Below, one piece after another: positions 1-25,437 of a stretch of DNA of 64,000 nt. The translations under genes and the position numbers were made by a program. A model generated the notes under the pieces. It had not been told where the DNA came from, did no database searches, and was given only the letters and a program-made list of their open reading frames with translations. The number at the start of each line of letters is the position of its first letter. The stretch's first letter is position 1. The stretch is from positions 992,001 through 1,056,000 of the forward strand of contig NZ_BAABCP010000001.1 in NCBI RefSeq assembly GCF_039539005.1, given 5' to 3'. The DNA comes from Microbacterium soli (GTDB taxonomy: Bacteria; Actinomycetota; Actinomycetes; Actinomycetales; Microbacteriaceae).

Positions 1-1173
1 GGGGAAGAACACGCCCGCCTCCGACACGAACCCGTAGGTGGCTCCCTCGCCCGTGCCGCGCACGCTGACGGCGACGCCCGTGCCGGGTTTCACACGGGTG
101 CCCGGCTCCGCACCCTCGGGGACGTCGGCGACCGAGACCGCGGGGTCGTCCGAGCCGGGTGTCATCCGCAGGCAGGCGGCAGAGGGGTTCTCCGCCGGGA
201 CCGGCACCTGTTCGGGCCAGCCCTCCGGCACGGCACGGGAGTTCGCATCACGGAGGTTCGTGGCCTCGGCGACCGTCAGCTCCGCGGGATCGACGCCGAC
301 GTACGCGGTCAGGAGGGTGCGGGCGAAGGGCGTCGCGGGCACGAGGCGTCCGCCACCGTCCACGATGTACTCGGCCACCGTCTCTCCATCGGCCTGGGTG
401 TGCACGACCTGGCCGACGACGAGGCCCGCGGCACCGGCATCCGATCCCAGCTCGCTGCCGAGGTCCACGGCCAGCGGCGGGCCGGGCGCGACGAGGTTCA
501 GCCACAGCGCCGACACGGTCGGCACGGCGCGCACGTCGTCGATGCCGAGGAACACGCTCGCGACCACCGCGACGCTGTCGGTGGGCACCGCGTAGCGACG
601 ATCAGCCTGGAGGAACCAGTACGCGCCGTCCTCGTCCGCGACGAGTGCGGCCCGCTCCTGCGACGACCCGCTCGGGTCGTCCAGCAGTCGGGTGGAGATC
701 CGCTGGGGAGCGTCCGCGGACACGCAGCCGAGCCACGCCCCGTCGTACTGCCGGTCGGGCGCGGGCAGACTGTCCGGCGCGCCGTCGATGCCGATTTCGG
801 CCGGGTCGCGCGCGATGCCGTCGAGCTTGTCCGCCGGCACGGAGATGACCTCCGTCGTGCCGGCCAGCAGGCGCGCGCTGGCGAGGTTCCTGACCGGGTG
901 GAGCGTGTCGTTCAGCGCGACGTACCGGGTCCCCTCGCCCTGCACGACGATGATCGAGCCGTCACCCCAGCCCTTCGGGAGAGTGCCGGTGAACGTCCCG
1001 ATCAGCAGCGAGACGATGACGGTGAGGATGCCGAGGGCGACGCTGACGACGACGCCCCGCAGGGGCTTGGCCGGCGGCAGCTCTCGCCCGCCGGGCGCGC
1101 CGCTGGTGAACGCCGTCTGGAGCCGTCGACGGTTGAACGCCTGCGCCTGCAGCAGCTCGGATTTGGATGCCAT
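1..1173 (-). CDS. eccB: Type VII secretion protein EccB (C-terminus cut off by window edge)
   Basis: About 391 N-terminal residues are visible; the frame runs off the left edge without a stop. EccB is a single-pass membrane subunit of the ESX core complex with a large extracytoplasmic domain. The sequence starts MASKSELLQAQAFNRRRL, the cytoplasmic F-x-R-R-R-L signature of the family. One membrane segment follows (VVVSVALGILTVIVSLLIG, about residues 44-62), then the conserved GTRYVALNDTLHPVRNLASA stretch and IGIDGAPDSLP, both typical of EccB. It starts 3 nt after the EccD stop, so the two are translationally close and almost certainly co-transcribed. EccC, MycP and the WXG100 substrates expected for a complete system are not in view and may lie to the left. 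The family call is firm; the length is unknown. Confidence 0.92.
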   Translation of the reverse strand, partial: MASKSELLQAQAFNRRRLQTAFTSGAPGGRELPPAKPLRGVVVSVALGILTVIVSLLIGTFTGTLPKGWGDGSIIVVQGEGTRYVALNDTLHPVRNLASARLLAGTTEVISVPADKLDGIARDPAEIGIDGAPDSLPAPDRQYDGAWLGCVSADAPQRISTRLLDDPSGSSQERAALVADEDGAYWFLQADRRYAVPTDSVAVVASVFLGIDDVRAVPTVSALWLNLVAPGPPLAVDLGSELGSDAGAAGLVVGQVVHTQADGETVAEYIVDGGGRLVPATPFARTLLTAYVGVDPAELTVAEATNLRDANSRAVPEGWPEQVPVPAENPSAACLRMTPGSDDPAVSVADVPEGAEPGTRVKPGTGVAVSVRGTGEGATYGFVSEAGVFFP

Positions 1174-1176
1174 GGA

Positions 1177-2529
1177 TCAGAACCAGCCCCCGGCGATGAT
1201 GGCCAGCGGCAGGAGCAGGGCGATCGTCGCCCATTCCGCGAAGTCGGCCAGGCGCGTCAGACCCAGTCGGGCCCTGCCGCTGAGCAGCACGATCACGATG
1301 ACGCACACGGCGGTCGCGGCCAGGGCCACCACGAGGACGCCGATCCAGTCCGGGTGGGAGATCATGGCGGCGACGACTCCCAGCGCCACTGCGGTCAGGG
1401 CGCCGGCCACGACGATCACGATGTCGAAGTGCGAGTACACCTGCCTGGTTCCCAGCAGCATGCCGGCGAGGGTGAGCACCCACAGCAGGAGTCCCCAGAA
1501 GCCGGATGCCACCACGGGCGCCGTCGCGATCAGCACGATCAGGCACAGCGCGATCCGCAGCGACACCTGGTAGCGGTGAGCACGCACGTACAGCTTCGCG
1601 ACCTGCTCGGGCGAGATGTGCTCGGGGGCGCTGTACACCTCGGAGTCGTCGCGGGCCGAGACGACGCGCAGCGGGACGGAGGCCAGCGCCACCCAGGGCG
1701 CGCCCAGTCCCGCGATGCCCGCGAGCGCCATGGCCGCGGTCAGGGTCCCGGCGACCGGGGCCGCCATCCAGGCGACCAGGGCGCCGATCACGAGGAGCAC
1801 GCCGCCCAGCGCGATGGGGATGAGACCGTACTCCCGCCGGCTGCGCAGCGCGAGCATGGCGATGACGCCGAACACGAGCACCGCCGCGCCGCCGGCGACC
1901 AGCGGAAGGCCCCACCCCGGCCCGGTCGGCAGCGCCGTGTAGCCCGCCGCCCCCGCGAAGGCGGAGGAGACCAGCGCGAGCGCCATCGCCGCCTGGGAGG
2001 GGGCGCCGGTGCGGTCCATGACGATCGCGCAGATCAACAGCACGACGGCCGCGGCGCCCGTGCCGGCCGCGGTGAGGATGCCGCCTCCGTCGACCCACGC
2101 CCACACGGCGGGGACGAGCCCCAGCAGGAGCAGGACGGATGCCACGACGGTGGCGGCGGTGGCCGAACTCTGCGCGGACCACGGGCGCGCGTTCTCCTCG
2201 ACGACGTCGGCGACGGCCTCGACGAGGTCGTCGTAGCGCTTGCCCGCGGCGGCCGTCGCCCCCTGTTCGAGCACGAGGAGGTCGCCGTCGTGCACGGCCT
2301 GCGCGGTGAGCGTGCGATCGGGGTCCAGCGCGCTGCCGTCCGCGCGGATCAGACGGAAGCCCGCGGATGCCGTCGAGCTGTCCAGCATCCGCAACCGGCG
2401 GGTCAGGGCGGGGAGCACCTCCGCGACGGGGACGCCGCCGGGGACGCCGACGTCGATGCGCTCGGACTCCCACTGCACCGACAGGCGCACGAACTGCGAC
2501 GGCGCGACCGCTGTCGTCTGAGACGGCAT
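1177..2529 (-). CDS. eccD: Type VII secretion integral membrane protein EccD
   Basis: 450 residues. EccD forms the multi-spanning membrane core of ESX secretion complexes. The N-terminus (about residues 10-95: QFVRLSVQWESERIDVGVPG, then ADGSALDPDRTLTAQAVHDG) fits the cytoplasmic ubiquitin-like domain. From about residue 125 to the end I count eleven hydrophobic segments, the last being WATIALLLPLAIIAGGWF at the extreme C-terminus, which matches the eleven-helix family topology. It is transcribed immediately before eccB (3-nt gap). Unlike the overlapping genes upstream, it is separated from the FHA-winged-helix gene by 79 nt, so the secretion core may have its own promoter or translation signal. 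Identification rests on topology, ubiquitin-like domain and pairing with EccB. Confidence 0.9.
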   Translation of the reverse strand: MPSQTTAVAPSQFVRLSVQWESERIDVGVPGGVPVAEVLPALTRRLRMLDSSTASAGFRLIRADGSALDPDRTLTAQAVHDGDLLVLEQGATAAAGKRYDDLVEAVADVVEENARPWSAQSSATAATVVASVLLLLGLVPAVWAWVDGGGILTAAGTGAAAVVLLICAIVMDRTGAPSQAAMALALVSSAFAGAAGYTALPTGPGWGLPLVAGGAAVLVFGVIAMLALRSRREYGLIPIALGGVLLVIGALVAWMAAPVAGTLTAAMALAGIAGLGAPWVALASVPLRVVSARDDSEVYSAPEHISPEQVAKLYVRAHRYQVSLRIALCLIVLIATAPVVASGFWGLLLWVLTLAGMLLGTRQVYSHFDIVIVVAGALTAVALGVVAAMISHPDWIGVLVVALAATAVCVIVIVLLSGRARLGLTRLADFAEWATIALLLPLAIIAGGWF

Positions 2530-2608
2530 GTGACCCTGCTTTCGTTGAACACGCGCGCTTCACTTTATCGCGCGACTGATGCGCTCCCCCGGCGACGGGC
2601 GCGTCCGG
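2530..2608 (-). promoter_or_regulatory. 79-nt gap with possible internal promoter for eccD-eccB
   Basis: This is the only sizeable gap downstream of MoxR in the locus. On the minus strand a TAAAGT hexamer (2562-2567) fits the TANNNT -10 pattern about 32 bases before the eccD ATG, flanked by CGCGCG repeats that could pair into a short stem. No convincing -35 box. Either an internal promoter or only a spacer. Confidence 0.3.
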
Positions 2609-3325
2609 TCAGGAGCGCGCGGCGCCCTCCTCACCGCCGGCCTCGGCATCCAGCAGCGCGAGATCCTCCCTCGTGACGAGGCGGCTGGAGACGACGTGCT
2701 CGACGAGCCGGGCCCGCCGGTTCGTGGCGAGTCTGCCCTGGCCCCCGCGCATCCCCTGCACACCGATGCGATCGAACTTGTCGCACACGTTGTCGAGCTT
2801 GCGGTTGAAGCGGGTGCTGGTCCACCCCAGCCGCTCGGCGGCCTTCGCGGAGCTGGGGATCTCGCTGGTGCCGGTGCCCTCCCTGCGCAGCACCGGTTCG
2901 GCCAGCGCGAGGATCAGCAGCTTCTGGCTGGCCGTGAGCGGGACGTGCCCGATGGTGGACTGCCCGCCGTTCGCGACCTCGCGCGGTGCGATGCGGAAGG
3001 CGGACCCGGTGGCGTGGATCGTGAACTCGTACGTCGTGGGTCCGGCTGTGAACACGACCGTGGTCTGCTCGAAGACGATGGGTAGCCGCGCACCGGGGGC
3101 GAGCCACGCGTTGACGCCGCCGGAGGAGTCGGTGACCGTCGCGGTCAGCCGCGCTCCGACGTTGGCCAGCCACCACAGACCGTCGGTGTTCGTGATCTCC
3201 AGGAAGTTGCGATGCAGGAACAGGTTGTCGTCGAGCTCCAGGTCGCCCTGCCGCCCGACGTGGAACGTGCTGCCGGCATCCAGCGGGTAGTACTCCCCCG
3301 CGTACTCGACCGTGACCTCCGTCAT
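2609..3325 (-). CDS. FHA-like domain fused to winged-helix DNA-binding domain
   Basis: 238 residues. Residues 1-105 look like a forkhead-associated (phosphothreonine-reading) domain: FHVGRQG at 21-27 supplies the GR pair and NLFLHRNFLEI at 34-44 stands where SRxHxxI is usual, so the pocket is somewhat degenerate. Residues 128-220 (LTASQKLLILALAEPVL, then SSAKAAERLGWTSTRFNRKL) resemble a winged helix-turn-helix. The start is the ATG at 3325, which overlaps the kinase stop as ATGA. Lying between the kinase and eccD, it could be the output of the kinase, turning phosphorylation into DNA binding as EmbR does in mycobacteria. That role is inference. Alternatively it is a purely protein-binding adaptor. 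Confidence 0.75.
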   Translation of the reverse strand: MTEVTVEYAGEYYPLDAGSTFHVGRQGDLELDDNLFLHRNFLEITNTDGLWWLANVGARLTATVTDSSGGVNAWLAPGARLPIVFEQTTVVFTAGPTTYEFTIHATGSAFRIAPREVANGGQSTIGHVPLTASQKLLILALAEPVLRREGTGTSEIPSSAKAAERLGWTSTRFNRKLDNVCDKFDRIGVQGMRGGQGRLATNRRARLVEHVVSSRLVTREDLALLDAEAGGEEGAARS

Positions 3326-4962
3326 CCTGCGCACCCCCTGACGGCCTCCGGCGAGGAGCGCCCGTCCCCCCTCCTGAGGACCACCTCCACGCACGTGCGC
3401 CCCGCGTCCGCCTTCTCGACGGTGGCGCTGGTCTCCGCGGTGACGTTCGGCTCCCCCTCTCCGTCGAGGGTGACCTCGTACCACATGTACTCGTCGCCCT
3501 CCTCCGGCGCGGGGTTCGTCCAGGTGAACGTCACGGCGTCCCCCTCGACGGTGCCGGTGAGGTCCGTCACGCGCGGCACCGCGACCGCGATCGGATCCTT
3601 GGGCTCTGGGGGCGGCGCGGATGTGCTCACGGGCGACGGCTCGATGCGATCGCCGAGCAGCGAGGCGGCGAAGACGATGCCCAGTACGACCAGAGCCGCG
3701 CCCACGATGACGAGGAGCCAGCCCCACCACGGCATCCCGCCGCGTCGCGGCGCCGGTCGCACGGCATCCGTCGGCGTCGGCTGCGCACCCGCGCCGGAGA
3801 CCCGCTCCTGCGGCGCGTCGGCATCCGGGACGACGACCTTCGGCCTGCGCAGCACCGTGGCCTCGTCATCGTCCGCGACGGCGGGCGCCGCGGCCGGCGG
3901 GCGGCGTCGGGTGTCGTCCTCGACGTCCGTCGGCGGGGTCGTGAAGCGCGGCACGCCGGCCGGCGGTCCCTCTGCCTCCCTGCGGACCGTCGTCGCGGAG
4001 GGTCGGGTCTGGGACTGCGTGTCGGGGCTGATCGAACGGACCTCCCGCACCCGGGTCAGTCCGTCGCCGTCATCCTCCAGCTCCTCATGCGAGGGGTGCT
4101 CGTCGACGATGTCGATGGGGGTGACCGAGTGCGCGAGCTCGATCTGCACCTTCTGCAGAGCCCGCGCGAACGCCACCGCACTGGGATAGCGATCGTCGGG
4201 GCGCTTGGCCATGCCCCTGTTCAGCACGGCCTGCAGGCTGTCGGGGACGTCCGGGCGGTCGATGCGCGGGACCGCCATGCGCTCGATGCGCTCGATCAGG
4301 TCGGCGCTGGAGTTGCGCTCGCCCCTGCGCTCGAACGGCGACCGGCCGGCGAGCAGGGTGAACACCGTGGCGCTGAGCGCGTACACATCGGTGCGCACGC
4401 TCGTCGACGGGTTCTCGGCGAACGACTCCGGCGGAGACCAGGGGATCGACATCCCCGCGGCGCCGTCCACGGCTGCCGTCGTCGACGCGATGCCGAAGTC
4501 GGTGAGCGCGGGTCTGTTGTACGCGGTGACGAGGATGTTCGCGGGCTTGATGTCACGGTGCAGCACGCCGGCGCGGTGCGCGGTCTCCACGGCGCCGCTG
4601 ACCTGTACGCCGACGCGCAGCGCCTCGGCGACGGAGAACGGCTCCCGGCGGGTGCGGACCTGCAGGTTGGGCCTGGGGCAGTACTCCATCACCAGGTAGG
4701 GGCGCCCGTCGACCGCCACGCCCGCCTGGTGGATGGTGACGATGGCGGGATGCGTGGACAGCATCGCCATGACGTTCGCCTCGTTGGTGAACTCCTCGGC
4801 GGCCCCGGCCGCCAGCCGGTCGGCGAGGAGCACCTTGACGGCGACCTCGCGCTTGGGCAGCTGCTGCTCGTAGAGGAAGACGTCTGCGAAGCCGCCGGTG
4901 CCCAGCGGCCTGAGGTACTCGAACCCCGGCAGCTCGGGCGGCGGAGACGGAGCGCGCGTCAT
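3322..4962 (-). CDS. Membrane Ser/Thr protein kinase (PknB-like) with extracellular FN3-like domain
   Basis: 546 residues. The N-terminal Hanks-type kinase domain (about 14-275) has all key residues: glycine loop LGTGGFADVF, K43 in VAVKV, HRDIKPAN (H135-R136-D137, N142) and DFG at 155-157; the APE position reads PPES. A long Pro/Thr/Arg linker (about 290-400) follows, then one membrane helix (WWGWLLVIVGAALVVLGIV, about 408-430). The outer part is a fibronectin III-like domain (TDLTGTVEGDAVTFTWTNP) with two Cys near the end, instead of the PASTA repeats of PknB. It overlaps both neighbours by ATGA. Likely substrates are proteins of this locus; the FHA proteins around it are probable readers. 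The outer domain may sense or bind the FN3-rich giant proteins (inference). Confidence 0.93.
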   Translation of the reverse strand: MTRAPSPPPELPGFEYLRPLGTGGFADVFLYEQQLPKREVAVKVLLADRLAAGAAEEFTNEANVMAMLSTHPAIVTIHQAGVAVDGRPYLVMEYCPRPNLQVRTRREPFSVAEALRVGVQVSGAVETAHRAGVLHRDIKPANILVTAYNRPALTDFGIASTTAAVDGAAGMSIPWSPPESFAENPSTSVRTDVYALSATVFTLLAGRSPFERRGERNSSADLIERIERMAVPRIDRPDVPDSLQAVLNRGMAKRPDDRYPSAVAFARALQKVQIELAHSVTPIDIVDEHPSHEELEDDGDGLTRVREVRSISPDTQSQTRPSATTVRREAEGPPAGVPRFTTPPTDVEDDTRRRPPAAAPAVADDDEATVLRRPKVVVPDADAPQERVSGAGAQPTPTDAVRPAPRRGGMPWWGWLLVIVGAALVVLGIVFAASLLGDRIEPSPVSTSAPPPEPKDPIAVAVPRVTDLTGTVEGDAVTFTWTNPAPEEGDEYMWYEVTLDGEGEPNVTAETSATVEKADAGRTCVEVVLRRGDGRSSPEAVRGCAG

Positions 4963-6305
4963 CGCAGCTCCTCGACGGCGACCGTCACCCCATCGCCCAG
5001 GTCCACGACGTCGCCGCCCAGCACGAGGGTCTGCTCTCCCGGGTGCAGCCGCACGGGGTCGGATCCCGGTCGCAGCAGCGTCGAGCCGTTGGTGGTGTGC
5101 AGGTCGATGACGACGACGGAGTCACCCTCGGGCCTGACCTCGAGGTGGTTGCGGGAGATGTCGGACTGGGGGCTGTCGACCGCGATGAGGTGCGGCATCG
5201 TGCTGCCGCTGGCACGGGTGGAGCGCGGGCGGCGGCCGATGATGACCGTGCGGTCCAGCTCGACGACCTGTCCGGTGGACAGTCGGATGCGCGCCGTCAC
5301 CGTGACGGGGGCATCCTCGTCGAGGACGGGGATCAGCTCGGTCGGCGCCTGCGAGGCGGCCGACGCCGTCCGCAGCCGGCGCATCTCGGCCATCGAGATG
5401 GTGGCACCGTCGTGGTCGCCGATGTCGAGGGGATCCGATGCGGCGGACTCAGATGCGGCGGGCTCGGCGCCGGCGAGCGCACGCGGGACGGAGGCGATGG
5501 TGGCCGCCACGTCGGGGACGGGCACGATGGTCGCGGCGACGTCGGGAACGTGCGCGACGGACGCGGCGGGCTGCTCGGCCTCGCCCTGCTCGTCGGCGTC
5601 GGCGTCCCACCCTTCGGCTTCATCGTCGTCCTCCGCCTCGTCGGGCAGCTCCGTCTCGTCGGTCTCGTCCCATGCCTCGTCCTCGGCGGGCTCCGCCTCA
5701 TCGTCGGCGTCGGGCTCGACGTCCTCCTCGTCGGACTCCTCCGCGCCGCCGTCGTCGAACTCGTCGAACTCGTCGGAGTCGGCGAACTCGTCGAGCGCAT
5801 CCTCCTCATCGAATCCGTCCGCGGCCTCGGCATCCGAGTCCTCGGCATCCGACTCGTCCTCCCGTGCGGCGGGGGCGACGAACGCCTCACCGACACGGAT
5901 GCCGGAGGCGAGGACCACGCCGGAGCGGATCGGGTACTCTGCCGCGCCGTCGGCATCGCCCATCCGGATCTCGAAGTGCGCGTCACCGGGGAGGTAGCGC
6001 TCGCTCCAGGTGGTGATGTCCTCCCCGGAGAAGCCCTCCTCGAACCCGGTGCCGACCGTCACGGCGCCGCGCACGGCGAAGCGCGTCCCGCCGGAGCCGA
6101 TGAGCGCCACGGCGAAGGAGCCCAGGCCCGTGATGGCGCCGCCGGAGAGCACGTCGATGACCTCGGTCAGGGCGGGCAGTCCGCGGCGGAGCATCTCGGA
6201 CAGCGCGACGACCTTGTCCGCACCCGTGTCCGCCGGGACGGCGGCGATCCCCGACTCCTCGACGACGACCTGCCACGTCCCCGGCCGGTAGCTCACGTCA
6301 CTCAT
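4959..6305 (-). CDS. FHA-domain protein with acidic linker
   Basis: 448 residues, three parts. Residues 1-145 form a domain I do not recognise (starts MSDVSYRPGTWQVVVEESG, contains a Gly-rich ITGLGSFAVALIGSGG stretch). Residues about 148-260 are an extremely acidic Asp/Glu/Ala linker, probably disordered. The C-terminal ~100 residues are a canonical FHA domain: VIIGRRPRSTR, then SDISRNHLEV and TTNGSTLL. FHA domains bind phosphothreonine, so this is a likely target or scaffold of the adjacent kinase. ATGA overlaps join it to the PP2C gene upstream and the kinase downstream. There is no membrane segment, so it is presumably cytoplasmic. Confidence 0.85.
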   Translation of the reverse strand: MSDVSYRPGTWQVVVEESGIAAVPADTGADKVVALSEMLRRGLPALTEVIDVLSGGAITGLGSFAVALIGSGGTRFAVRGAVTVGTGFEEGFSGEDITTWSERYLPGDAHFEIRMGDADGAAEYPIRSGVVLASGIRVGEAFVAPAAREDESDAEDSDAEAADGFDEEDALDEFADSDEFDEFDDGGAEESDEEDVEPDADDEAEPAEDEAWDETDETELPDEAEDDDEAEGWDADADEQGEAEQPAASVAHVPDVAATIVPVPDVAATIASVPRALAGAEPAASESAASDPLDIGDHDGATISMAEMRRLRTASAASQAPTELIPVLDEDAPVTVTARIRLSTGQVVELDRTVIIGRRPRSTRASGSTMPHLIAVDSPQSDISRNHLEVRPEGDSVVVIDLHTTNGSTLLRPGSDPVRLHPGEQTLVLGGDVVDLGDGVTVAVEELR

Positions 6306-7120
6306 CGCATTCCTCCATCCGCCACCGCACGCGGGCGCGTGTCGGCGACGTCCTCGTCGTCATCGGTCTGCACATGCACGCCGCGCACGGATGCCACCGT
6401 GAGCGCATCCACCACCAGCACGGTCACGTTGTCCCGGCCTCCGGCGCGCACGGCATCGGCCGTCAGGATCTCCGCGGCGCGCTGCGGGTCGGACTCGGCG
6501 GCCAGCACCTCGGCGATCCGCGCATCGGAGACCTCCGTGGTCAGACCGTCCGAGCACACCAGCATCCGGTCGCCCCGCTCCGCGGGGAACAGCCAGTAAT
6601 CGGCGTCGCCCACGCTTCCCGCTCCGATCGCCCGCGTGATGATGTTGCGACGCGGGTCGGAGTTCGCCTGCTCCGGCGTGATCTCGCCCTCGTCGATCAG
6701 CTCCTGCACATAGGAGTGGTCCACGGTGATCTGCTCGAGCACGCCGTCGGAGAACTGGTACGTGCGGGAGTCGCCGATGTTGACGACCAGCCAGTACCCC
6801 AGCCCGTCGACCGTGGCCACGACCACGCCGCTGAGGGTGGTCCCCGCACCCGCGCCGCCGCGTCGTCCTATCCCGCCCACCGCGGTGCGTGCGGCGGAAA
6901 GCGTGTCGCGCACCTGGCCGAGCGTGAGGCTCTCGAGCCCGACGAGAGCGGAGAAGTGCTCGATGACCGTCGCGCTGGCGACCTCGCCGGCATCGTGCCC
7001 GCCCATCCCGTCGGCGACGATGAACAGCGGCGCGGCGGCGAGATAGGAGTCCTCGTTGAGCCTGCGACGGGAGCCGACGTCCGTCGCGCCCCCGCCCGCG
7101 GTGATGATCGGAGCGGTCAC
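6302..7120 (-). CDS. PP2C-family protein serine/threonine phosphatase
   Basis: 272 residues, one PP2C/PPM domain and no membrane segment. Metal-binding motifs are intact: LNED at 21-24, VADGMGGHDAG at 35-45, NIGDSR, CSDGLT and GGRDNVTV. It should dephosphorylate the kinase and its targets, giving a reversible switch. ATGA overlaps link it to the RDD-FHA gene upstream and the acidic FHA gene downstream. The layout phosphatase-FHA-kinase is the classic actinobacterial signalling trio, here inside a type VII secretion locus. It also echoes the PppA-FHA-PpkA control of some type VI systems, by analogy only. Confidence 0.95.
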   Translation of the reverse strand: MTAPIITAGGGATDVGSRRRLNEDSYLAAAPLFIVADGMGGHDAGEVASATVIEHFSALVGLESLTLGQVRDTLSAARTAVGGIGRRGGAGAGTTLSGVVVATVDGLGYWLVVNIGDSRTYQFSDGVLEQITVDHSYVQELIDEGEITPEQANSDPRRNIITRAIGAGSVGDADYWLFPAERGDRMLVCSDGLTTEVSDARIAEVLAAESDPQRAAEILTADAVRAGGRDNVTVLVVDALTVASVRGVHVQTDDDEDVADTRPRAVADGGMR

Positions 7121-8487
7121 ACGTACCCTCCGATCGTGACGATGCGATCACCGATCTCGAGGGCGTCGCCCAGGCGCACCGGGACGCGCTGCCCGGGAGG
7201 GCACGCGATGCGCACGCCGTCGCGGACGATGACGGTGCCGTTGGTGGACTGGCGATCGAGCACCCAGCCGCCGCGCGCATCCGCGCCGGCCTCGAAGTGC
7301 GTCTTCGACAGGGAGCGGGTCTCGTCGCGGACGGCCACGTTGACCGCGCCGTCGCCCTCCTCGGGATTGCGCCCGAAGACCGTTCGGCCCGAGACCGTCG
7401 CACGCTGCCCGTCGTCCCACGTGAAGACGAGGCGGTGTCCCGGCACGCTGATGCGGGTGGACTCGATGTCGTCGTCGTGCTCGTTCACGAGCGGAGCGGC
7501 GGCGGATGTCGGCGCGGCGGGGCTCGGTGCCACGGGCGCGGCGACGGGGGGCTCGGGAAGAGGCGCGTCGGCCGGCTCCGCGGCGCGCGGGACGGGGGCG
7601 GGCCCGAGGCGCGCGGCGACCGTCTCCCCGGGCAGGGGGTCGGGTGCGTCGGCGGCGGTGCGATCGGCGTGAACCGGATCCGCGGGTGCGGGGCCCACCG
7701 ACGCGGGCACGACGGACTCCTGGGTGACGCCCGGCACGAACGAGATCAGCGGATCGTCGGGGAGTGCACGGCGCGGCGGTGGGGACAGCACGGTGCGCTC
7801 GGCCGACTCGTCCTGCTCCGCCTGCGCGAAGCCCTGCTGCGCGAACCCGGGAGCCGCCGGCTCGGGCACCGCCGGCTCGGGCGGCGGCGTCCCCACCGAT
7901 CCGGACGCGACCTGCGGCGCCGGCGGGCGGGGCGGGATCTCCTGCGGAGCGGGCCATGCGAAGCCCGGCATCGACGTCTGCGCCGGCTGACCGGCATCGG
8001 TCGCGCCCTCACCGAACGGCTGCGCCGGCTGACCGGCCTCCGTGCGCGGACCGGCATCGACCATGAACGCCCCACCGGCCTTGTCGTGCCAGCCCTGGAA
8101 CCTGCCGGAGCCGTCGAACAGCGGCGAGAAGCAGCCGACGACGATCGACGCCGCCAGACCCCACACGATGTTGCGCAGCAGGGCCCTGCCGAATCCGATC
8201 GGCGTGCCGTCGACAGTGACCAGCCGCAACCGCTGGATGCGCATGCCCACCGAGCCGCGTCCGCCCTGCATGGCCGTGAACGTCAGCGCCCAGGCGAGGC
8301 CGGCCGCGCCCGCCAGCAGTCCTGCCAGCAGGATGGCGGACACCAGGTCGCCACCGCTCACGATGATGGCGACCAGTGCGACCACCGGGACGACCACGCT
8401 GATCGCCGCCGCCAGGACGGCGTCGATGAGGTACGCGATGACTCGTCGTGAGATCGGCGCGACAGCGCCGAAGGGAAGCATCGTCAT
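7117..8487 (-). CDS. RDD-family membrane protein with C-terminal FHA domain
   Basis: 456 residues. The N-terminal ~135 residues are an RDD domain: SRRVIAYLIDAVLAAAISV with the Arg/Asp pair, further hydrophobic segments, and SVGMRIQRLRLV. A long Pro/Ala/Gln-rich linker (about 140-345) leads to a C-terminal FHA domain (TVFGRNPEEGD, RSLSKTHFE, DRQSTNGTV). The domain order places a phosphothreonine reader on a membrane platform, able to recruit phosphorylated partners. The start is the ATG at 8487 (MTMLPFGAV), overlapping the transglutaminase stop as ATGA. A second in-frame ATG two codons on is possible but lacks that overlap. Confidence 0.88.
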   Translation of the reverse strand: MTMLPFGAVAPISRRVIAYLIDAVLAAAISVVVPVVALVAIIVSGGDLVSAILLAGLLAGAAGLAWALTFTAMQGGRGSVGMRIQRLRLVTVDGTPIGFGRALLRNIVWGLAASIVVGCFSPLFDGSGRFQGWHDKAGGAFMVDAGPRTEAGQPAQPFGEGATDAGQPAQTSMPGFAWPAPQEIPPRPPAPQVASGSVGTPPPEPAVPEPAAPGFAQQGFAQAEQDESAERTVLSPPPRRALPDDPLISFVPGVTQESVVPASVGPAPADPVHADRTAADAPDPLPGETVAARLGPAPVPRAAEPADAPLPEPPVAAPVAPSPAAPTSAAAPLVNEHDDDIESTRISVPGHRLVFTWDDGQRATVSGRTVFGRNPEEGDGAVNVAVRDETRSLSKTHFEAGADARGGWVLDRQSTNGTVIVRDGVRIACPPGQRVPVRLGDALEIGDRIVTIGGYV

Positions 8488-10880
8488 GAGGTCTCGCTCT
8501 CGGGTCGCGTGGTACTGCTGTCGATGGTGCCAGGTCGGCGGCGCACGCGCGCGGCCGCGGCCTCCCTCAGCCCCTGTATCCGTCCGGCGGACCGGCCGCT
8601 GCCGGTGAGCGAGCGGACGCTGAGGCGGGCCTTCAGGCGCTTCCAGAAACCGGCCTCGCGGCCCAGGCCGCTCACGACGGAGTCGATCTCGGTCCAGAAC
8701 GCGTCGACCTCCTCCGGGGTGGGGTCGCCGGGACCGAACACCTGGTCGTCGGCCCGATCGGCGAGCGCGGTCACGGCGGGGACGGTGAGCGCCGTGGAGA
8801 CGACGGCCGCCTCCTCGACGCGGGTGCCGCCCGCGGACAGCCGGGCGCCGTAGTCGATCGCCCGGTCGGTGAGCTCGTCCCACCCGCCGCTGATGCGGTC
8901 GGCGGTCAGCCGCGCACTGCGGCGGGAGCGACGGCGCGCGGCCTTCCACGCGCCGATGACGATGAACGGCGAGCTGAGGATCAGCAGCACCAGCAGCGAG
9001 GCGCCGCCGATGGCGAGGATGATCCCGATGATGCCGAGGATGTTCGGGGTGTCGTCCTCCGGCTCCCGGTCGTCCGGGACGGTCGGGGGCAGGTCGACCG
9101 GCTCCTGCGGCGGGGGCGGTGGCTGCAGCACCTGGGGTTTGGGGTCGGCGCGCGGCTTGGTGTTCTGATCCTGGGGGACCTGGTCCTCCGGAGGCGTCGG
9201 GTCGAACGGCAGCCAGCCGTAGCCGGTGAAGTTCACCTCGACCCACGCGTGCACGTCGTCGCCGGTCGCCTCGAAGACGGAGCCGGTGTCGCCGCCCTCC
9301 TTCGGGTAATAGCCCATCACGACGCGCGCCGGGATGCCGATCTCCCGCGCCATGAGCGCCATGGTCACCGCGTACTGCTCGTCGTCGCCGATCATCTGGT
9401 CACCGCCGATGAGCGTCGCGATGCGCTCGGCGGTGTGCCCGGCGCGCGACAGGTGAGCCTGCGCCCCCAGGCCGTGACTGAAGAAGCCGTCCTTCGACAG
9501 CAGAGTCTCCAGCGCGCGCACCTGCGCGATGGGGGTCTCCGCCTCGGTCACGGCCTCCGCGGCCATGCTGCTCAGCTCCTCCGGCACATCATGCAGCTCG
9601 GGCAGACGCATCTTCACGACGGGGGTGTCGCCGAGGGTCTCGTCGCTGGGCACGTCGGGGAACACGGCGTCCACCTCGTACGCGTCGCCCTCGCGCAGCC
9701 CGGCGGTGACCACCGTGGTCCCCGTCGCGGTGTTGTGATACCCGCTGCGACGCAGCTCTTCGGCCCGTTCCCCGTCGAAGGTGATCTGGTCCTCCACCAG
9801 GGTGCCGGGCACCCAGACGCCGCTGTACTCGCCGATCGTGAACTGCAGCGTCGCCGCCTCGCCCTCCACCCCGGCGGCCATGTTCGAGCGCAGCGGCGCG
9901 AACGCGCTGGATGTGCCCGGGCCGCCGTCGGTCACGTTGTAGACCACGCCGTCCCAGTCGTCCATGGCCGCCAGCCGCACCCGCGCGCCCTTCGGCAGTC
10001 CGGTGACGGTGAACAGCGTGCGGTCGACCTGATCGCGCACGTTCTTGCGGAACGCCTGCAGGGGGCTCGGGTAGTCGCGGACGTCGAACGGCGGGACGAT
10101 CGTGTCGCGGAACACGTGCCGGGGTTCGGCGGGCGAGGCGATCGCCCCGAGGCCGCTGCCGGCGACGCCGGCGACGGCGAGGACGGCCACACCGCCCAGC
10201 AGCCGCCGGGCGCGCATGTGCGCGGTCCGCGTCGGGTCTGCCTCGGACACGTCGACGGCGCCGCGCTGCGGCACCCACCAGGTGCGCAGCGACATCCACA
10301 CCGTCGTCACCGCGGCGAACACCACGCCCTGCACGAGCGGGAAGGCGGGATCCGGCACGCCCAGCGCGATGACGAGCATCAGGACGGATGCCGCGGGGAT
10401 GAGCGCCCACCACGCCAGGCGCAGGGTCAGCGCGAGCGAGGCCACCGTGACGGCGCCCACCAGCGCGAGGATGAACGGCACCACCAGGTGCCCGTCGTCC
10501 GCCGACACCGGCGCCACCGTGGTCAACAGCTGCTTCCACGACGTGACCGCCCCGACTGCCAGCGCCTGCAGCGTGTCCAGCGTCGGCACGACGCGGAACA
10601 GTGCGGTGCCCGGCAGCGCGATCGCCCCGCCGAAGAGGAAGTAGGCCGCGATCGTGCATCCGGTGATGACGAGGATGCCCCAGCGCCGCCAGGCGCACAC
10701 CGCCGCGATCGCGAGGCCCAGCACCACGCCGCCGACCGCGGCGGGCAGGAACGAGGGTCCGGCGAAGCTGGGCCAGAAGCCCAGCAGCGCCACGAGCATG
10801 AGCACCGCCGTCGCGGCCAGATCCAGCAGCGCACGACGCGGGCGCAGCCCCCGGCCCGGCGTCTGCGTCGCCGCGGTCAT
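8484..10880 (-). CDS. Membrane transglutaminase-like protein (TgpA type), catalytic Cys replaced by Asp
   Basis: 798 residues. N-terminal hydrophobic segments, a long outer region, a transglutaminase-like core (about 470-565), a Pro-rich stretch (QPPPPPQEPVDLPPTVP), another membrane segment (ILGIIGIILAIGGASLLVLL) and a cytoplasmic tail. The core has His544 (DVHAWVEV) and Asp560 (WLPFDPTP) of the Cys-His-Asp triad, plus GIPARVVMGY. The motif that normally reads G-x-C-E-Q reads GDDEQ, with Asp500 in the Cys position, so ordinary thiol catalysis is not expected. MoxR-DUF58-transglutaminase is a recurrent cluster. ATGA overlaps on both sides. It may be a structural or binding module rather than an enzyme. 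Confidence 0.9.
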   Translation of the reverse strand: MTAATQTPGRGLRPRRALLDLAATAVLMLVALLGFWPSFAGPSFLPAAVGGVVLGLAIAAVCAWRRWGILVITGCTIAAYFLFGGAIALPGTALFRVVPTLDTLQALAVGAVTSWKQLLTTVAPVSADDGHLVVPFILALVGAVTVASLALTLRLAWWALIPAASVLMLVIALGVPDPAFPLVQGVVFAAVTTVWMSLRTWWVPQRGAVDVSEADPTRTAHMRARRLLGGVAVLAVAGVAGSGLGAIASPAEPRHVFRDTIVPPFDVRDYPSPLQAFRKNVRDQVDRTLFTVTGLPKGARVRLAAMDDWDGVVYNVTDGGPGTSSAFAPLRSNMAAGVEGEAATLQFTIGEYSGVWVPGTLVEDQITFDGERAEELRRSGYHNTATGTTVVTAGLREGDAYEVDAVFPDVPSDETLGDTPVVKMRLPELHDVPEELSSMAAEAVTEAETPIAQVRALETLLSKDGFFSHGLGAQAHLSRAGHTAERIATLIGGDQMIGDDEQYAVTMALMAREIGIPARVVMGYYPKEGGDTGSVFEATGDDVHAWVEVNFTGYGWLPFDPTPPEDQVPQDQNTKPRADPKPQVLQPPPPPQEPVDLPPTVPDDREPEDDTPNILGIIGIILAIGGASLLVLLILSSPFIVIGAWKAARRRSRRSARLTADRISGGWDELTDRAIDYGARLSAGGTRVEEAAVVSTALTVPAVTALADRADDQVFGPGDPTPEEVDAFWTEIDSVVSGLGREAGFWKRLKARLSVRSLTGSGRSAGRIQGLREAAAARVRRRPGTIDSSTTRPESETS

Positions 10881-12136
10881 GCCAGCACCTTCTGCAGGGC
10901 GAGGGGCAGCTGGTCGAGGGCGCCCAGCGTCACCACATCGGCGTCGGAGATACGGCGCAGCGCGGGCTGGTCGACGCCGTCCTGCACGACGACGGCGATG
11001 ACGCGCGCCCCGAACGGCATCCGCGAACACGCCAGGCGCAGGTCCTCCCCGGAGACCGCCGACCCGCACACCAGGGCGACGACGCTGGCGGATGCCGTGG
11101 TCGCCGCCAGTGCTCCGGCGAGCTCGGGCACGCCGCCGTCGCGGGGACGGGTGTGCTCCACCATCGACAGCGAGTCCAGCAGCCGCATGCCGGTCCCCGC
11201 GGGCAGCTCCCGCCCCTGCACGCGCACGTCCACGCGCTGCGAGTCGCGCAGCGCGCGAAGGCCGATGGATCCGGCGATGGAGATCGCGAGCTCGAACTCG
11301 TCGTCGGTGCGGTAATCGCGCGCAGAGCAGGAGAGCCCGATGACGAAGTGGGAGCGGCGGGTCTCCTCGAACTGCCGGACCATCATGATCCCGGTACGGG
11401 CCGTGGAGCGCCAGTGCACGTGTCGCAGGTCGTCGCCCGGCTGGTACTCCAGGAGGGTGTGGAAGGACACGTCGTCGCGCGACAGGTCCGCCGCGGGAAG
11501 CCCCTCCAGGTCGCGCAGGAACCCGAGCGACTGCCCGCCGAACAGCGTGGTGCGCGGATGCACGTAGAGGTCCACGGGGTCCTCGCGGTGGTGGGTCCGC
11601 TCGAACAGCCCGAGCGGGTCACCGCGCACGACGCTGACCGGCCCGACCTCGACGACGCCGCGACGGTGCGTGGGGATGGCGAACAGCTCCTCGGCCTCGT
11701 GACCGGGGGCCAGCCGGTGGATGGAGAACTCGCCGCGCCCGTTCCCCACCGGCAGCACCACCCGGGAGGGCAGGATCGCCCGCGATCCGTGGTTGCGCAG
11801 CGTCAGCGCACCGACCGCGCGCTCGCCGACCACGACGCGGTCACGGGCGAGATCCAGCTCGACGTCGTACTCCGTGCGGCCGATGAGGAACAGGGCGCAC
11901 ACGACGGCGACGGCCGCCATCACGAGCCCCAGCACGACGACCTCGTGCCAGCCGAGGACCTGACCGGTGATCCACGCCGCCACGGCGAGCGCCATCACCA
12001 TCCAGCCGAGCGGGCGGACGACGGCCGCGATGCGCCGCAGGCGGTCGACCGCGCGCGCGCCGATGACGGCGACGATGTCGCGCCACCCGGCCTCGCGCGA
12101 GTCCGTCTGCGGTCCCGCGATCGTCTCCGTCGTCAT
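10877..12136 (-). CDS. DUF58-domain protein
   Basis: 419 residues. Two close hydrophobic segments near the N-terminus (PLGWMVMALAVAAWITGQVL and VVVLGLVMAAVAVVCALFLI) anchor it. The DUF58 signature lies in the middle (HVHWRSTARTGIMMVRQFEE), followed by a von Willebrand A-like tail. DUF58 proteins accompany MoxR ATPases and are thought to be their clients or adaptors; biochemical function is largely unknown. The start ATG at 12136 overlaps the MoxR stop by one base (TGATG) and the 3' end overlaps the transglutaminase gene as ATGA. The start fixed by the overlap excludes a longer upstream reading of the frame. Confidence 0.9.
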   Translation of the reverse strand: MTTETIAGPQTDSREAGWRDIVAVIGARAVDRLRRIAAVVRPLGWMVMALAVAAWITGQVLGWHEVVVLGLVMAAVAVVCALFLIGRTEYDVELDLARDRVVVGERAVGALTLRNHGSRAILPSRVVLPVGNGRGEFSIHRLAPGHEAEELFAIPTHRRGVVEVGPVSVVRGDPLGLFERTHHREDPVDLYVHPRTTLFGGQSLGFLRDLEGLPAADLSRDDVSFHTLLEYQPGDDLRHVHWRSTARTGIMMVRQFEETRRSHFVIGLSCSARDYRTDDEFELAISIAGSIGLRALRDSQRVDVRVQGRELPAGTGMRLLDSLSMVEHTRPRDGGVPELAGALAATTASASVVALVCGSAVSGEDLRLACSRMPFGARVIAVVVQDGVDQPALRRISDADVVTLGALDQLPLALQKVLA

Positions 12137-13107
12137 CAGGCGGTCGCCCGTGCCTGCGGTGCCGCCACGATCTCGAGCACCCGGGCGATGACGGAGTCCG
12201 CCGTCGCGCCCGCGAACTCCGCCTCCGCATCCAGCAGGAGCCGATGCTGCCACACGGGGCGGGCGAGAGCCTTGATGTCGTCGGGGAGCACGTAGTGCCG
12301 TCCGTGCGCGGCGGCCCACACCTTGGCGATGCGGACCATGGCGATGGCCCCGCGCACCGACACGCCGAGCTTGATCGCGCTGTCGGTACGGGTGGCCTCG
12401 GCGAGCTCGGCCGTGTACCGCAGCACGGCGGACTCCACGTGCACGGTGGCGGCGAGATCGGCCATGTCGGCCACGGCGCCCGTGGTGATGACCGCGGACA
12501 GCGCTGCAGCGCGGTTGCGCTGCGCGGCGCCGGCGAGGATGCTCTCGGTGACGACGAGACTGGGGTAGCCGATCGACGTCTTGATGAGGAAGCGGTCCAG
12601 CTGCGCCTCGGGCAGTTTGTAGGTCCCCGCCTGCTCGACGGGGTTCTGCGTCGCGATGACGAGGAACGGCCGGCCGGCCTCGTGCGTGACGCCGTCGACG
12701 GTGACGCGCGACTCCTCCATGACCTCCAGCAGCGCGGACTGGGTCTTCGGCGAGGCGCGGTTGATCTCGTCGGCGAGGACGATGGACGCGAAGATCGGAC
12801 CGCGGTGGAATTCGAACCTCTGCGTCTGCTGGTCGTAGATCGTCACACCCGTCACGTCCGAGGGCAGCAGGTCGGGGGTGAACTGGATGCGGGAGCTGGT
12901 GCCCTGCACGGTGGCGGCCAGCGCCTTGGCGAGGCTGGTCTTCCCCGTTCCCGGGGCGTCCTCGAGCAGCACGTGCCCCTCGGCGAGCATGGCCGCGAGC
13001 ACGAGGCCGACGACCTCGGACTTGCCCTGCAGCGCCTTGTCGATGTTCTCCACGAGGCGCTGGAAGGTGCTCTGGAACCAGGCTGCCTGTTCGGGGGTCA
13101 TTGTCAT
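12136..13107 (-). CDS. MoxR-family AAA+ ATPase
   Basis: 323 residues, the usual size for MoxR. Walker A is DAPGTGKT (50-57), Walker B is IVLADEINRASPKTQ, followed by ALLEVMEE and the sensor-like LVIATQNPVEQAGTY. MoxR proteins are chaperone-like ATPases that mature or assemble partner complexes, often with von Willebrand A or DUF58 clients; here the client is the next gene. The ribosome site GAGGAACGAG lies ahead of the start. It follows the giant protein gene by 38 nt, so it is probably read from the same transcript and could help assemble the giant proteins or the secretion machine (inference). Confidence 0.95.
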   Translation of the reverse strand: MTMTPEQAAWFQSTFQRLVENIDKALQGKSEVVGLVLAAMLAEGHVLLEDAPGTGKTSLAKALAATVQGTSSRIQFTPDLLPSDVTGVTIYDQQTQRFEFHRGPIFASIVLADEINRASPKTQSALLEVMEESRVTVDGVTHEAGRPFLVIATQNPVEQAGTYKLPEAQLDRFLIKTSIGYPSLVVTESILAGAAQRNRAAALSAVITTGAVADMADLAATVHVESAVLRYTAELAEATRTDSAIKLGVSVRGAIAMVRIAKVWAAAHGRHYVLPDDIKALARPVWQHRLLLDAEAEFAGATADSVIARVLEIVAAPQARATA

Positions 13108-13145
13108 GTCGATGCTCGTTCCTCATCAGTCGATCTGCTCGAAAT

Positions 13146-19232: not shown

Positions 19233-19274
19233 GACGTGGTCTCCCCCCTGGTGTCGGCCGCGTATGCCGGTGCC

Positions 19275-19328
19275 AGTGTAGCCGGAAGTCCCGATGAGAG
19301 CCCTATCAGCGGATGGGGAGCGCTCCCC
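19275..19328 (-). promoter_or_regulatory. Candidate promoter and palindrome upstream of giant gene B
   Basis: On the minus strand a perfect palindrome GGGGAGCGCTCCCC (19315-19328) is followed by TACACT (19275-19280), a TANNNT -10 box about 42 bases before the ATG. The same elements in the same order precede giant gene A. The palindrome also lies 17 bases past the stop of gene A, so it could be a terminator-like hairpin; no T-run follows. Confidence 0.4.
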
Positions 19329-19344
19329 GCACCCGCCGGTGCGG

Positions 19345-25300: not shown

Positions 25301-25437
25301 TCGTTGAGATCGACTTTGGCCGTGGGAAGCCCGTCATACGCGAACGCCATCCCGGTCAGGGCGACAGCGCCGATCACGACACCCGCCGTCGCCGCAAGAG
25401 TCCTCGGACGCGACCGGACCCACGACAGCACCCTCAT
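19345..25437 (-). CDS. Giant Ig/cadherin-like and fibronectin III surface protein, paralogue A
   Basis: 2,030 residues, same architecture as paralogue B: signal anchor (MRVLSWVRSRPRTLAATAG, hydrophobic to GMAFAYDGLP), propeller-like head, Ig/cadherin-like modules (VLDNDNDPDGD, VLLNDSDPEGG, VLANDEDPDGT, VLENDINPFPD), five FN3 modules from ~1464 (VPDAPGTP, PDTPSAPW, GPPLAPAQP, APGAPTNVK, GAPNVPSA) and a C-terminal tip with two Cys (STCQNV, YVCPGEAG). The N-terminal LNDAGVWLTKTSSLLVGHFN stretch is identical in the two paralogues, while the FN3 region and tip have diverged more. First gene of the locus, with GGGGGGAAT before the ATG. In-place tandem duplication is the simplest origin. Likely a cell-surface fibre or adhesin; substrate or anchor of the type VII machine is inference. 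Confidence 0.88.
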   Translation of the reverse strand: MRVLSWVRSRPRTLAATAGVVIGAVALTGMAFAYDGLPTAKVDLNDAGVWLTKTSSLLVGHFNHESTVLDGGLRAGSEDYDVLQDRSDVLIVDRGNATVSAVDPARVSLSGSVDLPGDAQVALGGGTVAVMERGSGRLWVVPFSGLAGFDPASAEPDITLGGDSAVTVGTDGTVYGVAGAEGEIVTLATDARGEVLDQTRDPIGELDDAERPAITAVGTTPVVLDSAGTVLAPGGVRVELDADGGAVLQQTSAATDAVTVATADELIRVPLDGGEPTRMSAGGTGAPAAPVWLQGCTYGAWAGSARFLRDCAGDADDVAERIPQAESATQLAFRVNRDVIVLNDIIGGAAWLTDESLQQVDDWSVLTPPEGDTEDEEQNSEETVETTLPERKKENTPPTAEDDPGLGVRPGSTTMLSVLDNDNDPDGDVLVASLVGGQPSVGEVQPVLDGAALQIDVPEDASGSAAFTYRADDGRGGSDTATATVSVHDWSVNSAPRTKRVTRLAVESGGTISYNVLPDWIDPDGDDIYLQDVAAAPGDEVEFTTGGQITYRAVGSLQGRKDVQITVSDGLQATASGTIQLDVRPPGSTLPKTNADHVVTRPGAAVTVSPLANDASSGREQLRLAGVDDVPGAIITSDFPNKQFTFTTQAAGVYYVQYLVAAGPNAVPGLVRVDVLDTADSALPPVAVRDVALLPMGGEVLLDPLVNDTDPAGGVLVLQSASLDEARGGLSVSVLEHQTLRIGDQGGLNGPAHITYRISNGTRSAEGEVVVLPIPAPDRILAPVAVDDQAVVRVGDVVTIPVMANDSHPSGDTIHVVPELVEAPADPEDGEIFVSQDTVRFRAGTTPKTVGATYEIVDSMGQKAAAYIRIQVVPLDEDSNAAPVPRDLTVRTLSGATQRIAIPLDGLDQDGDSVELLGLADGPQKGRVVETGQDFLTYEAFSDATGVDTFSYLVRDRLGGEGSGSIRVGIAPREKANQAPYAVKDSVVVRPDREVAVPVLLNDSDPEGGKISLVEDGLSAPDVEGVSARVSGDRVLIRVPDRELETALRYTIVDEMGATATAVVQVRVDPDVPLKAPIARDDRVLMTDVTDSATVDIDVLANDEDPDGTTQDLALDVGPGGTALPDGIVRVVVGEQMQIVRYTVTDRDEKSASAFVFVPSIAQMRPILTRVDPVVVRSGETKELPLDDYVTVFGGGRAIITEASKVSAPHGNGDNLIKDERTLVYTSAEGYFGEDSLTFEVTDGERVDDPAGRRATLTIPITVLPPENQQPAFTDARMQIAPGEEAMTLDLAPLASDPDPDDELAFRLTDTPADGITVRLDGSRLQVSAAEDVRRGTTATVGLSVTDGETEPVPGQVTVEVTASTRDLPIATDDVYDEVDQGEPITIPVLENDINPFPDTPLSIVSASLETGRGDVTTRGEEVVITPDGDFVGALVVRYRIQDATKDPDREVDGRIRLTVQGVPDAPGTPRVVSVQDRTVVLAWSSPVNNGAEITTYTVRSVQGGTYTKQCESTTCTLDRLTNNVEYVFQVTATNRVGESEPSPSSEMARPDTRPDTPSAPWLTFGDHELEVAWTTPSTAGSPVESYTLQISPAPPSGPAEISGVTGNSTVWTGLENGREYQVRIRAHNRAPEPSDWSLYSLGETPAGPPLAPAQPTTAELDPVGSQAQMEVRWSAPDANGDAISGYELQVRQGSTVVRTLEPAAGATRQAVQVDPSQTGYTFRIRAINRAGAGEWSPLSAERRGVLAPGAPTNVKATPGDNTVTVSYTAGSLGGAKQGEVSYQYRIGSNGSWTAMPSDRVIRSGVANNGTYSIYVRAVSDVAGTTSKAGPASAPSNAVSPYGAPNVPSASASVSGQTITWRIGATARNGRDVTVAWSDNKGNSGTVGAGGGNVAESYSWSTSVTLTVTVTDKPTSSQPAAAQSRTVTAKSATGAKPLPRVTVSRGGTATYGPSTCQNVRVTTYGDFPAGRYVVDAYKAGRWFANNKGNAVPIPAKGPAELGSYVCPGEAGKFVTVEIQGVEADIEGTYW

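Follow-up and report, generated by a model that had tools for sequence, protein, structure and literature searches.

A gene set resembling the PFNA operon of probiotic bifidobacteria is found repeatedly beside type VII secretion motors, and the stretch analyzed here holds one such case. This stretch, called the window, comprises 64,000 nucleotides of Microbacterium soli (G000:C1:992001-1056000 of a 3.1-Mb genome; GC 71%). Twelve minus-strand genes within it encode, in order, two giant surface proteins, MoxR, DUF58, a transglutaminase-like protein (TG), an RDD protein with an FHA motif (RDD-FHA), a PP2C phosphatase, an FHA protein, a Ser/Thr kinase, an FHA-winged-helix protein, EccD, and EccB. 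Both the gene content of this set and its recurrent physical coupling to several types of type VII motor are directly demonstrated below. We read the overlapping block and the giants upstream of it, together termed the module, as one half of a type VII secretion system: a surface-and-control part of PFNA type, docked in this genome to an ESX-4-like T7SSa motor; we regard this reading as an even call.

Motors beside the module in relatives

The usual partner of the module is an EssC-type ATPase, and ESX is a minority partner. TG was chosen as the marker, MoxR alone being poor because its paralogues overlap at 60 to 63% identity. Named genomes were scanned with it and the best 80 of 89 matched loci were used; gene calls in relatives come from a simple caller, with small genes and starts approximate. 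Among these 80, 61 loci contain the module end. An EssC-type ATPase of one clade, here EssC-A, comes next in 39, ESX genes (EccD/EccB/MycP) in 5, a convergent EccC in 4, all of them Arthrobacter, and a third kind of EssC in 1, with no motor inside the locus in the remaining 12. In 10 of the 39 EssC-A loci the EssC start codon overlaps the stop codon of the gene before it, and the junction between module and ESX recurs in L007, L008, L014, L021, and L057. In L007 (G020 contig 19), a close relative, the eccB match falls into two separate pieces, which may reflect gene decay or a misassembly.

Three of the 12 motorless loci end within 3 kb of the module, and in L029 and L084 a motor lies just past the locus edge. 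Seven others have EssC-A elsewhere in the genome (L045, L048, L051, L062, L067, L076, and L086), and for L067, L076, and L086 this distant EssC-A adjoins a second module copy (L097, L099, and L100). L077 has EccC elsewhere, and L020 and L022 have weak EccC-model matches only. In two Arthrobacter genomes (L076 and L086; L099 and L100), one module copy was found without MoxR and the second stands beside EssC.

At the genome level, a type VII-type ATPase was found in all 44 module genomes (32 EssC-A, 2 third EssC, 4 ESX EccC, and 6 other EccC; the L014 EccC match was read across one TGA). EccB was found in 4 of the 44 module-bearing genomes searched, and ESX as an obligate partner was set aside for that reason. 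The sequence-only reading had tied the module to ESX and had named regular occurrence without an ESX core as evidence against itself. Taken literally, that is what was found, although the broader association of the module with type VII secretion survives.

The exchange of motors is visible at one shared site, marked by a resolvase-like gene, a malate dehydrogenase, and a zinc peptidase (the zinc peptidase alone a Pfam match; these genes and an antiporter otherwise named by eye). Here the module is followed by EssC-A (L087, L088, and L089), ESX (the window and L105), third EssC (L101), or no motor (L048, L051, L062, and L067). In the motorless cases the resolvase-like gene directly follows the module, with an antiporter-like gene beside it. 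The resolvase-like gene was not seen in L105, nor the zinc peptidase in L048. Between EssC and the conserved flank, L089:4055-15238 carries repeated small genes that by eye resemble a type VII effector/partner array and include another FHA-winged-helix relative at 4462-5244. In other families a shorter chain, giant-MoxR-DUF58-TG-EssC-WXG100, occurs in L110, L111, and L112; L113 has it with EssC separated from a WXG100-like gene by an RDD gene, and L119 has giant-DUF58-TG-kinase, then subtilase-like genes and a convergent EccC. The records of L030 and L050, labeled Planococcus and Stenotrophomonas maltophilia, hold Microbacterium-like module genes and are probably contaminated or mislabeled assemblies.

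A tree of 56 ATPases recovers EssC-A as a clade of 26 (support 0.98) and EccC as a clade of 12 (1.0). EssC-A is separate there from EccC, from the third EssC, and from the motor of L108 and L144, which we label T7SSd-like from its kinase-giant-EssC order. The identity of EssC-A with T7SSd was set aside on the basis of this clade, in a tree that contained no reference T7SSb to T7SSj motors. EssC-A carries a phosphothreonine-competent FHA domain, and a fold search of its N terminus returned FHA domains for about residues 91 to 192. The first 88 or so residues (L064:17744-18010 and relatives) are predicted to form a beta-beta-alpha-beta arrangement, possibly a fused ubiquitin-like (YukD-type) domain; the consulted part of PMC11217815 reports T7SSd without a separate ubiquitin-like protein. 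Six of 10 small near-motor proteins score above the Pfam WXG100 cut-off (5 of 8 beside EssC-A, 1 of 1 beside third EssC, and 0 of 1 beside EccC). Those of L090 and L114 are WXG100 below cut-off, that of L099 gives a weak T7SS_signal match only, and that of L102 had no match in the WXG100 Pfam scan.

Co-occurrence across genomes

Two samples were counted, an order sample of 198 genomes and a genus sample of 109 Microbacterium genomes; these counts and the Fisher tests on them ignore shared ancestry. The order-sample counts omit one second TG match piece (G196) and the second pieces of split ATPase matches, and for genomes lacking TG an ATPase match is recorded solely under the name of the genome. 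TG was found in 97 of the 198 genomes. EssC lies within 20 kb of 33 of 106 TG loci and is downstream on the same strand in all 33. EccC lies within 25 kb of 4 TG loci: downstream on the same strand in 1 (the window), downstream and convergent in 2, and upstream in 1. Full-length EssC occurs in 50 of the 97 TG-bearing genomes versus 7 of the 101 others, and any type VII ATPase in 82 versus 48.

The module is present in 76 of the 109 Microbacterium genomes. For 34 of its 78 copies, the 25 kb downstream include a same-strand motor (25 EssC-A, 5 EccC, and 4 third EssC). EccC lies upstream of another 3 copies; these were not counted as docking, and in the one that was read (L146) unrelated genes intervene. 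Some type VII ATPase occurs in 75/76 module genomes versus 28/33 without the module, and EssC-A in 59/76 versus 1/33. For EccC of any type the figures are 14/76 versus 27/33, which argues against a special tie of the module to EccC in general.

The gene chain and ESX block of the window

The twelve genes lie where the sequence-only reading had placed them (Table 1). All are open frames, most with a coding-type GC pattern, and Pfam supports EccB, EccD/YukD, kinase, FHA (4959-6305), PP2C, RDD, TgpA_N plus Transglut_core, DUF58, MoxR (AAA_3), and the Big_9/FN3 giants, leaving the FHA-winged-helix protein as the sole one without a match. From MoxR to this protein all seven consecutive junctions overlap, one as TGATG (1 nt) and six as ATGA or GTGA (4 nt). 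These overlaps, also noted earlier, suggest translational coupling rather than the fixed ratio that had been read from them, and the locus described as fused consists of adjacent genes, none of them fused. Giant 2 and MoxR are 38 bp apart, and the wider gap before EccD places the ESX genes outside the overlapping chain. The nearest named loci are from Microbacterium, with TG 82% identical in Microbacterium sp. 69-10 and M. arabinogalactanolyticum among the matches listed.

Table 1. Features of the module and the adjoining ESX block. Positions are those of the window unless prefixed L002; L002 coordinates minus 16000 give window coordinates.
Feature	Position	Strand	Remarks
Giant 1, 2030 aa	19345..25437	-	Sec-like signal (by eye); beta-propeller N terminus (AlphaFold); Big_9/cadherin-like repeats; FN3 repeats
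Giant 2, about 2028 aa	13146..19232	-	59% identical to giant 1 over 2016 columns
MoxR AAA+ ATPase	12136..13107	-	Walker A/B intact
DUF58 protein	10877..12136	-	TGATG overlap with MoxR
TgpA-like membrane transglutaminase-fold protein	8484..10880	-	Catalytic Cys replaced by Asp (GDDEQYA)
RDD membrane protein, C-terminal FHA motif	7117..8487	-	ESTRIS motif immediately before FHA
PP2C phosphatase	6302..7120	-	Metal-site motifs intact
FHA-domain protein	4959..6305	-	Long acidic linker; FHA at C terminus
Hanks-type Ser/Thr kinase, transmembrane	3322..4962	-	Linker motifs GLTRVR, EATVLR; small domain past membrane segment
Degenerate FHA plus putative winged-helix-like protein	2609..3325	-	Winged helix as assigned in the sequence-only reading
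Gap between overlapping chain and ESX genes	2530..2608	-	79 bp
EccD	1177..2529	-	YukD-like ubiquitin domain plus membrane domain
EccB	1..1173	-	Runs past left window edge; whole gene L002:15854-17173
MycP-like subtilase	L002:14589-15857		PF00082 plus position only
Second degenerate FHA protein	L002:13378-14142		
RDD protein, two FHA domains	L002:9200-10666	+	
Second EccD-like protein	L002:7866-9203	+	Slightly below Pfam cut-off
EccC	L002:3794-7780		FtsK domains; EccC clade in ATPase tree
WXG100 pair	L002:3325-3642 and 3009-3305		PF06013 above cut-off in both

Genes for EccC, MycP, and WXG100 proteins had been named as those to look for left of position 1, with eccC as the deciding gene. EccC, a MycP-like subtilase, and two WXG100 genes were found there, so the ESX core of the window genome is real and that test of the reading was passed. 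EccE had no match among the left-flank proteins scanned, which were fewer than all open reading frames; EccE is absent from some ESX-4 systems. A search of the window genome with the EssC model gave nothing above FtsK level.

Giant surface proteins

Each giant has a Sec-like signal sequence at its start, as judged by eye and hydropathy, and the two are therefore probably not type VII substrates; their display by ESX, as first suggested, thus appears unlikely. For giant 2 the start is most likely 19232, where this signal lies, and not the longest-open-reading-frame start at 19472. The longest frame contains an extra hydrophobic stretch at 294-314 (its own numbering), within the propeller region. 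By hydropathy only, a C-terminal membrane segment was not found in either giant. A model of 357 residues from the N terminus of giant 1 predicts a beta-propeller (mean pLDDT 86), for which Foldseek ranks a surface-layer propeller and BamB highest, at modest TM-scores (about 0.4 to 0.6). A wall-spanning or surface role is plausible by analogy with that proposed for TsdI of T7SSd in the part of PMC11217815 consulted.

Transglutaminase fold and putative phospho-switch

The transglutaminase-like assignment of TG stands as far as its TgpA_N and Transglut_core matches go, but the nucleophile is missing. At the position aligned to the Cys of TgpA 6g49 that we take to be catalytic, none of 96 aligned sequences (the window and 95 homologues) has Cys: 93 have D, 2 have E, and 1 has S. 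The Cys-His-Asp triad of an active transglutaminase is thus incomplete. The single Ser belongs to L107, from a small genome with a PFNA locus. Cross-linking activity of the PFNA-type "transglutaminase" is doubtful on these grounds, and cross-linking of the giants by TG was set aside because the catalytic Cys is missing.

The complete reversible switch proposed in the sequence-only reading, with three FHA readers, holds in most of its parts. The kinase, PP2C, and two FHA readers look competent from their retained key residues, including the phosphothreonine-binding residues of the RDD-FHA and FHA proteins; the FHA of the former was identified by motif, without a Pfam match. The third reader is degenerate. 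In the winged-helix protein, H-R-x-F stands in place of the expected Ser-x-x-His in 67 of 67 homologues, aligned by eye to the FHA pattern, and this FHA has no Pfam match.

A conserved motif, acidic-x-Thr-[RVIK]-hydrophobic, recurs in the linkers of the kinase and of RDD-FHA. After length and score limits the motif set held 71 of 73 kinase, 47 of 92 RDD-labeled, and 57 of 69 FHA sequences; counts are of start positions, so that one Thr may count more than once, in the shuffles also. Short acidic proteins with repeated DDATRLS-like motifs lie near the FHA-protein position in L115 (9178-9777) and L122 (5757-6389) and are candidate multisite Thr substrates.

Proposed mechanism and alternatives

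We infer from this gene set that motor assembly or activity is under phospho-control. A giant exported by Sec would form a wall-spanning or surface element, and MoxR, DUF58, and the Cys-less TgpA-like protein may remodel or assemble a membrane complex. The kinase, possibly with its extracytoplasmic domain as sensor, would phosphorylate the acidic-x-Thr motifs; FHA domains (those of RDD-FHA and the FHA protein, and the motor's own in EssC-type relatives) would bind them and set whether the motor assembles or is active. PP2C would reset the switch. The route could be direct where the motor has its own FHA, as in EssC-A, and in the window would run through RDD-FHA, FHA, or the FHA proteins of the ESX block.

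We also propose, tentatively and a little short of an even call, that MoxR, DUF58, the dead TgpA-like protein, and the propeller/Ig/FN3 giant form the core of an unrecognized type VII subtype of Actinomycetes. This subtype would be represented by EssC-A and by the minimal giant-MoxR-DUF58-TG-EssC-WXG100 chain. Its portable half would have docked to three or more other motors (the window ESX, the third EssC, and the convergent Arthrobacter-type EccC), with the Bifidobacterium PFNA operon, interpreted as a sensor of host immunity, as a relative separated from its motor.

Several observations weigh against the type VII reading of the module. In the order sample, 7 genomes carry full-length EssC but no TG, and at the thresholds applied neither ATPase type was detected in 15 of the 97 genomes with TG. 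Some type VII ATPase is widespread even where the module or its marker is absent, in 48 of 101 order-sample genomes lacking TG and in 28 of 33 Microbacterium genomes lacking the module. In Microbacterium, the 25 kb around 41 of 78 copies of the module hold no motor, so that a motor neighborhood is not obligatory. No FHA family appears among the matches of the window EccC, and FHA readers here must therefore act through other proteins. Motif enrichment in the FHA-protein linker is weak (20 versus 9.7, with a shuffle maximum of 21), and the sequences carrying the Thr motif are related, hence not independent. Finally, the 2.1-Mb genome G134 carries a kinase-giant-EssC set of T7SSd-like type about 33 kb from its PFNA locus.

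The unlinked copies also favor an alternative that we consider unlikely, though the strongest of its kind, in which a PFNA-type surface or adhesion operon merely shares a cell-envelope gene region with type VII genes and the switch acts on display of the giants rather than on secretion. The Bifidobacterium PFNA papers, in the parts consulted, draw no type VII link (PMC8430577, PMC6803598), and a PFNA-order paralogue in another Microbacterium (L106; kinase-giant-MoxR-DUF58-TG-?-PP2C-FHA/winged helix-turn-helix) has no type VII neighbor within the 20 kb read. A merely shared region accords poorly, however, with the 33 nearby EssC genes of the order sample, every one of them downstream on the same strand, and with the stop/start overlaps into EssC. 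It accords poorly, too, with the near restriction of EssC-A to module-bearing Microbacterium genomes, unlinked cases included, and with the phosphothreonine-competent FHA of EssC-A.

It is much less probable that the giants are type VII substrates displayed by ESX or EssC, with the switch timing their export. Giant and motor genes do share gene chains, but the N-terminal Sec-like signals of the giants, the lack of any WXG or LXG family match in a Pfam scan, and the presence of a same-family giant in L107, a PFNA locus set apart from type VII genes, speak otherwise. That two unrelated systems lie side by side by chance in the window genome is scarcely credible: the gap before EccD would suit it, but the junction recurs in the five ESX loci named above and in many loci with other motors.

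Should the reading of the module as a type VII half hold, it would connect two literatures that appear unlinked, on type VII secretion and on the PFNA operon, and put the enzyme assignment of the PFNA "transglutaminase" in question. It offers a testable hypothesis of phospho-controlled type VII secretion in soil bacteria, with a named motor clade and a minimal gene chain, and motor exchange behind a constant surface and control block would let the roles of the parts be separated.

Comparison with known systems

The consulted parts of PMC8430577 and PMC6803598 give the Bifidobacterium PFNA order as pkb2-fn3-aaa-atp-duf58-tgm-prpC-?-fha and report that its kinase phosphorylates MoxR. The window shares with it, on one strand, a kinase, an FN3 giant, MoxR, DUF58, a transglutaminase-like protein, PP2C, and an FHA protein. 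Unlike PFNA, the window kinase stands near the end of the block, after FHA, and not first before fn3; the block adds RDD-FHA, an extra FHA protein, and a second giant, and it adjoins a type VII motor. By families and order, the non-ESX part of the window thus matches the PFNA operon type as described there, with the kinase apparently moved downstream. Further relatives bear on this order: L107 (G134) has kinase-giant-MoxR-TG, with DUF58 not called, and L115 and L122 have modules nearer the L106 type, yet adjoining EssC-A. The term "type VII" is absent from PMC8430577, and in its available text the review PMC12067865, whose authors compare the mycobacterial moxR operon (MoxR-DUF58) with PFNA, makes no type VII secretion link for either. 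No literature linking PFNA-type modules to type VII secretion was found among open-access papers, a set that leaves out most subscription papers, including the PFNA originals.

Phospho-control has already been put forward for some type VII subtypes by Garrett et al. 2024, whose T7SSd comprises a kinase plus a giant (PMC11217815, consulted in part). Shared with T7SSd/T7SSe as presented there are an FHA motor, a membrane Ser/Thr kinase, a giant Ig-like Sec-exported protein, and the idea of phospho-control. Unlike T7SSd in that account, the window motor shows no N-terminal FHA among its family matches and falls in the EccC clade, and the window giants show no C-terminal membrane helix by hydropathy only. 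MoxR, DUF58, transglutaminase, fibronectin, Microbacterium, and Arthrobacter are all absent from the main text of PMC11217815.

With T7SSa/ESX-4-like systems the window locus shares EccB, EccC, EccD, a MycP-like subtilase, and a WXG100 pair; unlike them, its ESX block has an extra EccD-like protein, an RDD protein with two FHA domains, and a degenerate FHA protein, with a PFNA-like module upstream. The type VI PpkA-PppA-Fha set is a kinase, PP2C, and FHA switch of the same logic, with no homologous secretion machine, and the likeness is by analogy. A type VI comparison is also drawn in the consulted part of PMC11217815. The sequence-only reading, which called the locus under-described, missed its match to the published PFNA operon; its claim holds for the recurrent type VII coupling of the gene set. 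The parts of the module belong to known families, and it is the coupling of PFNA-type modules to type VII secretion that is apparently under-described.

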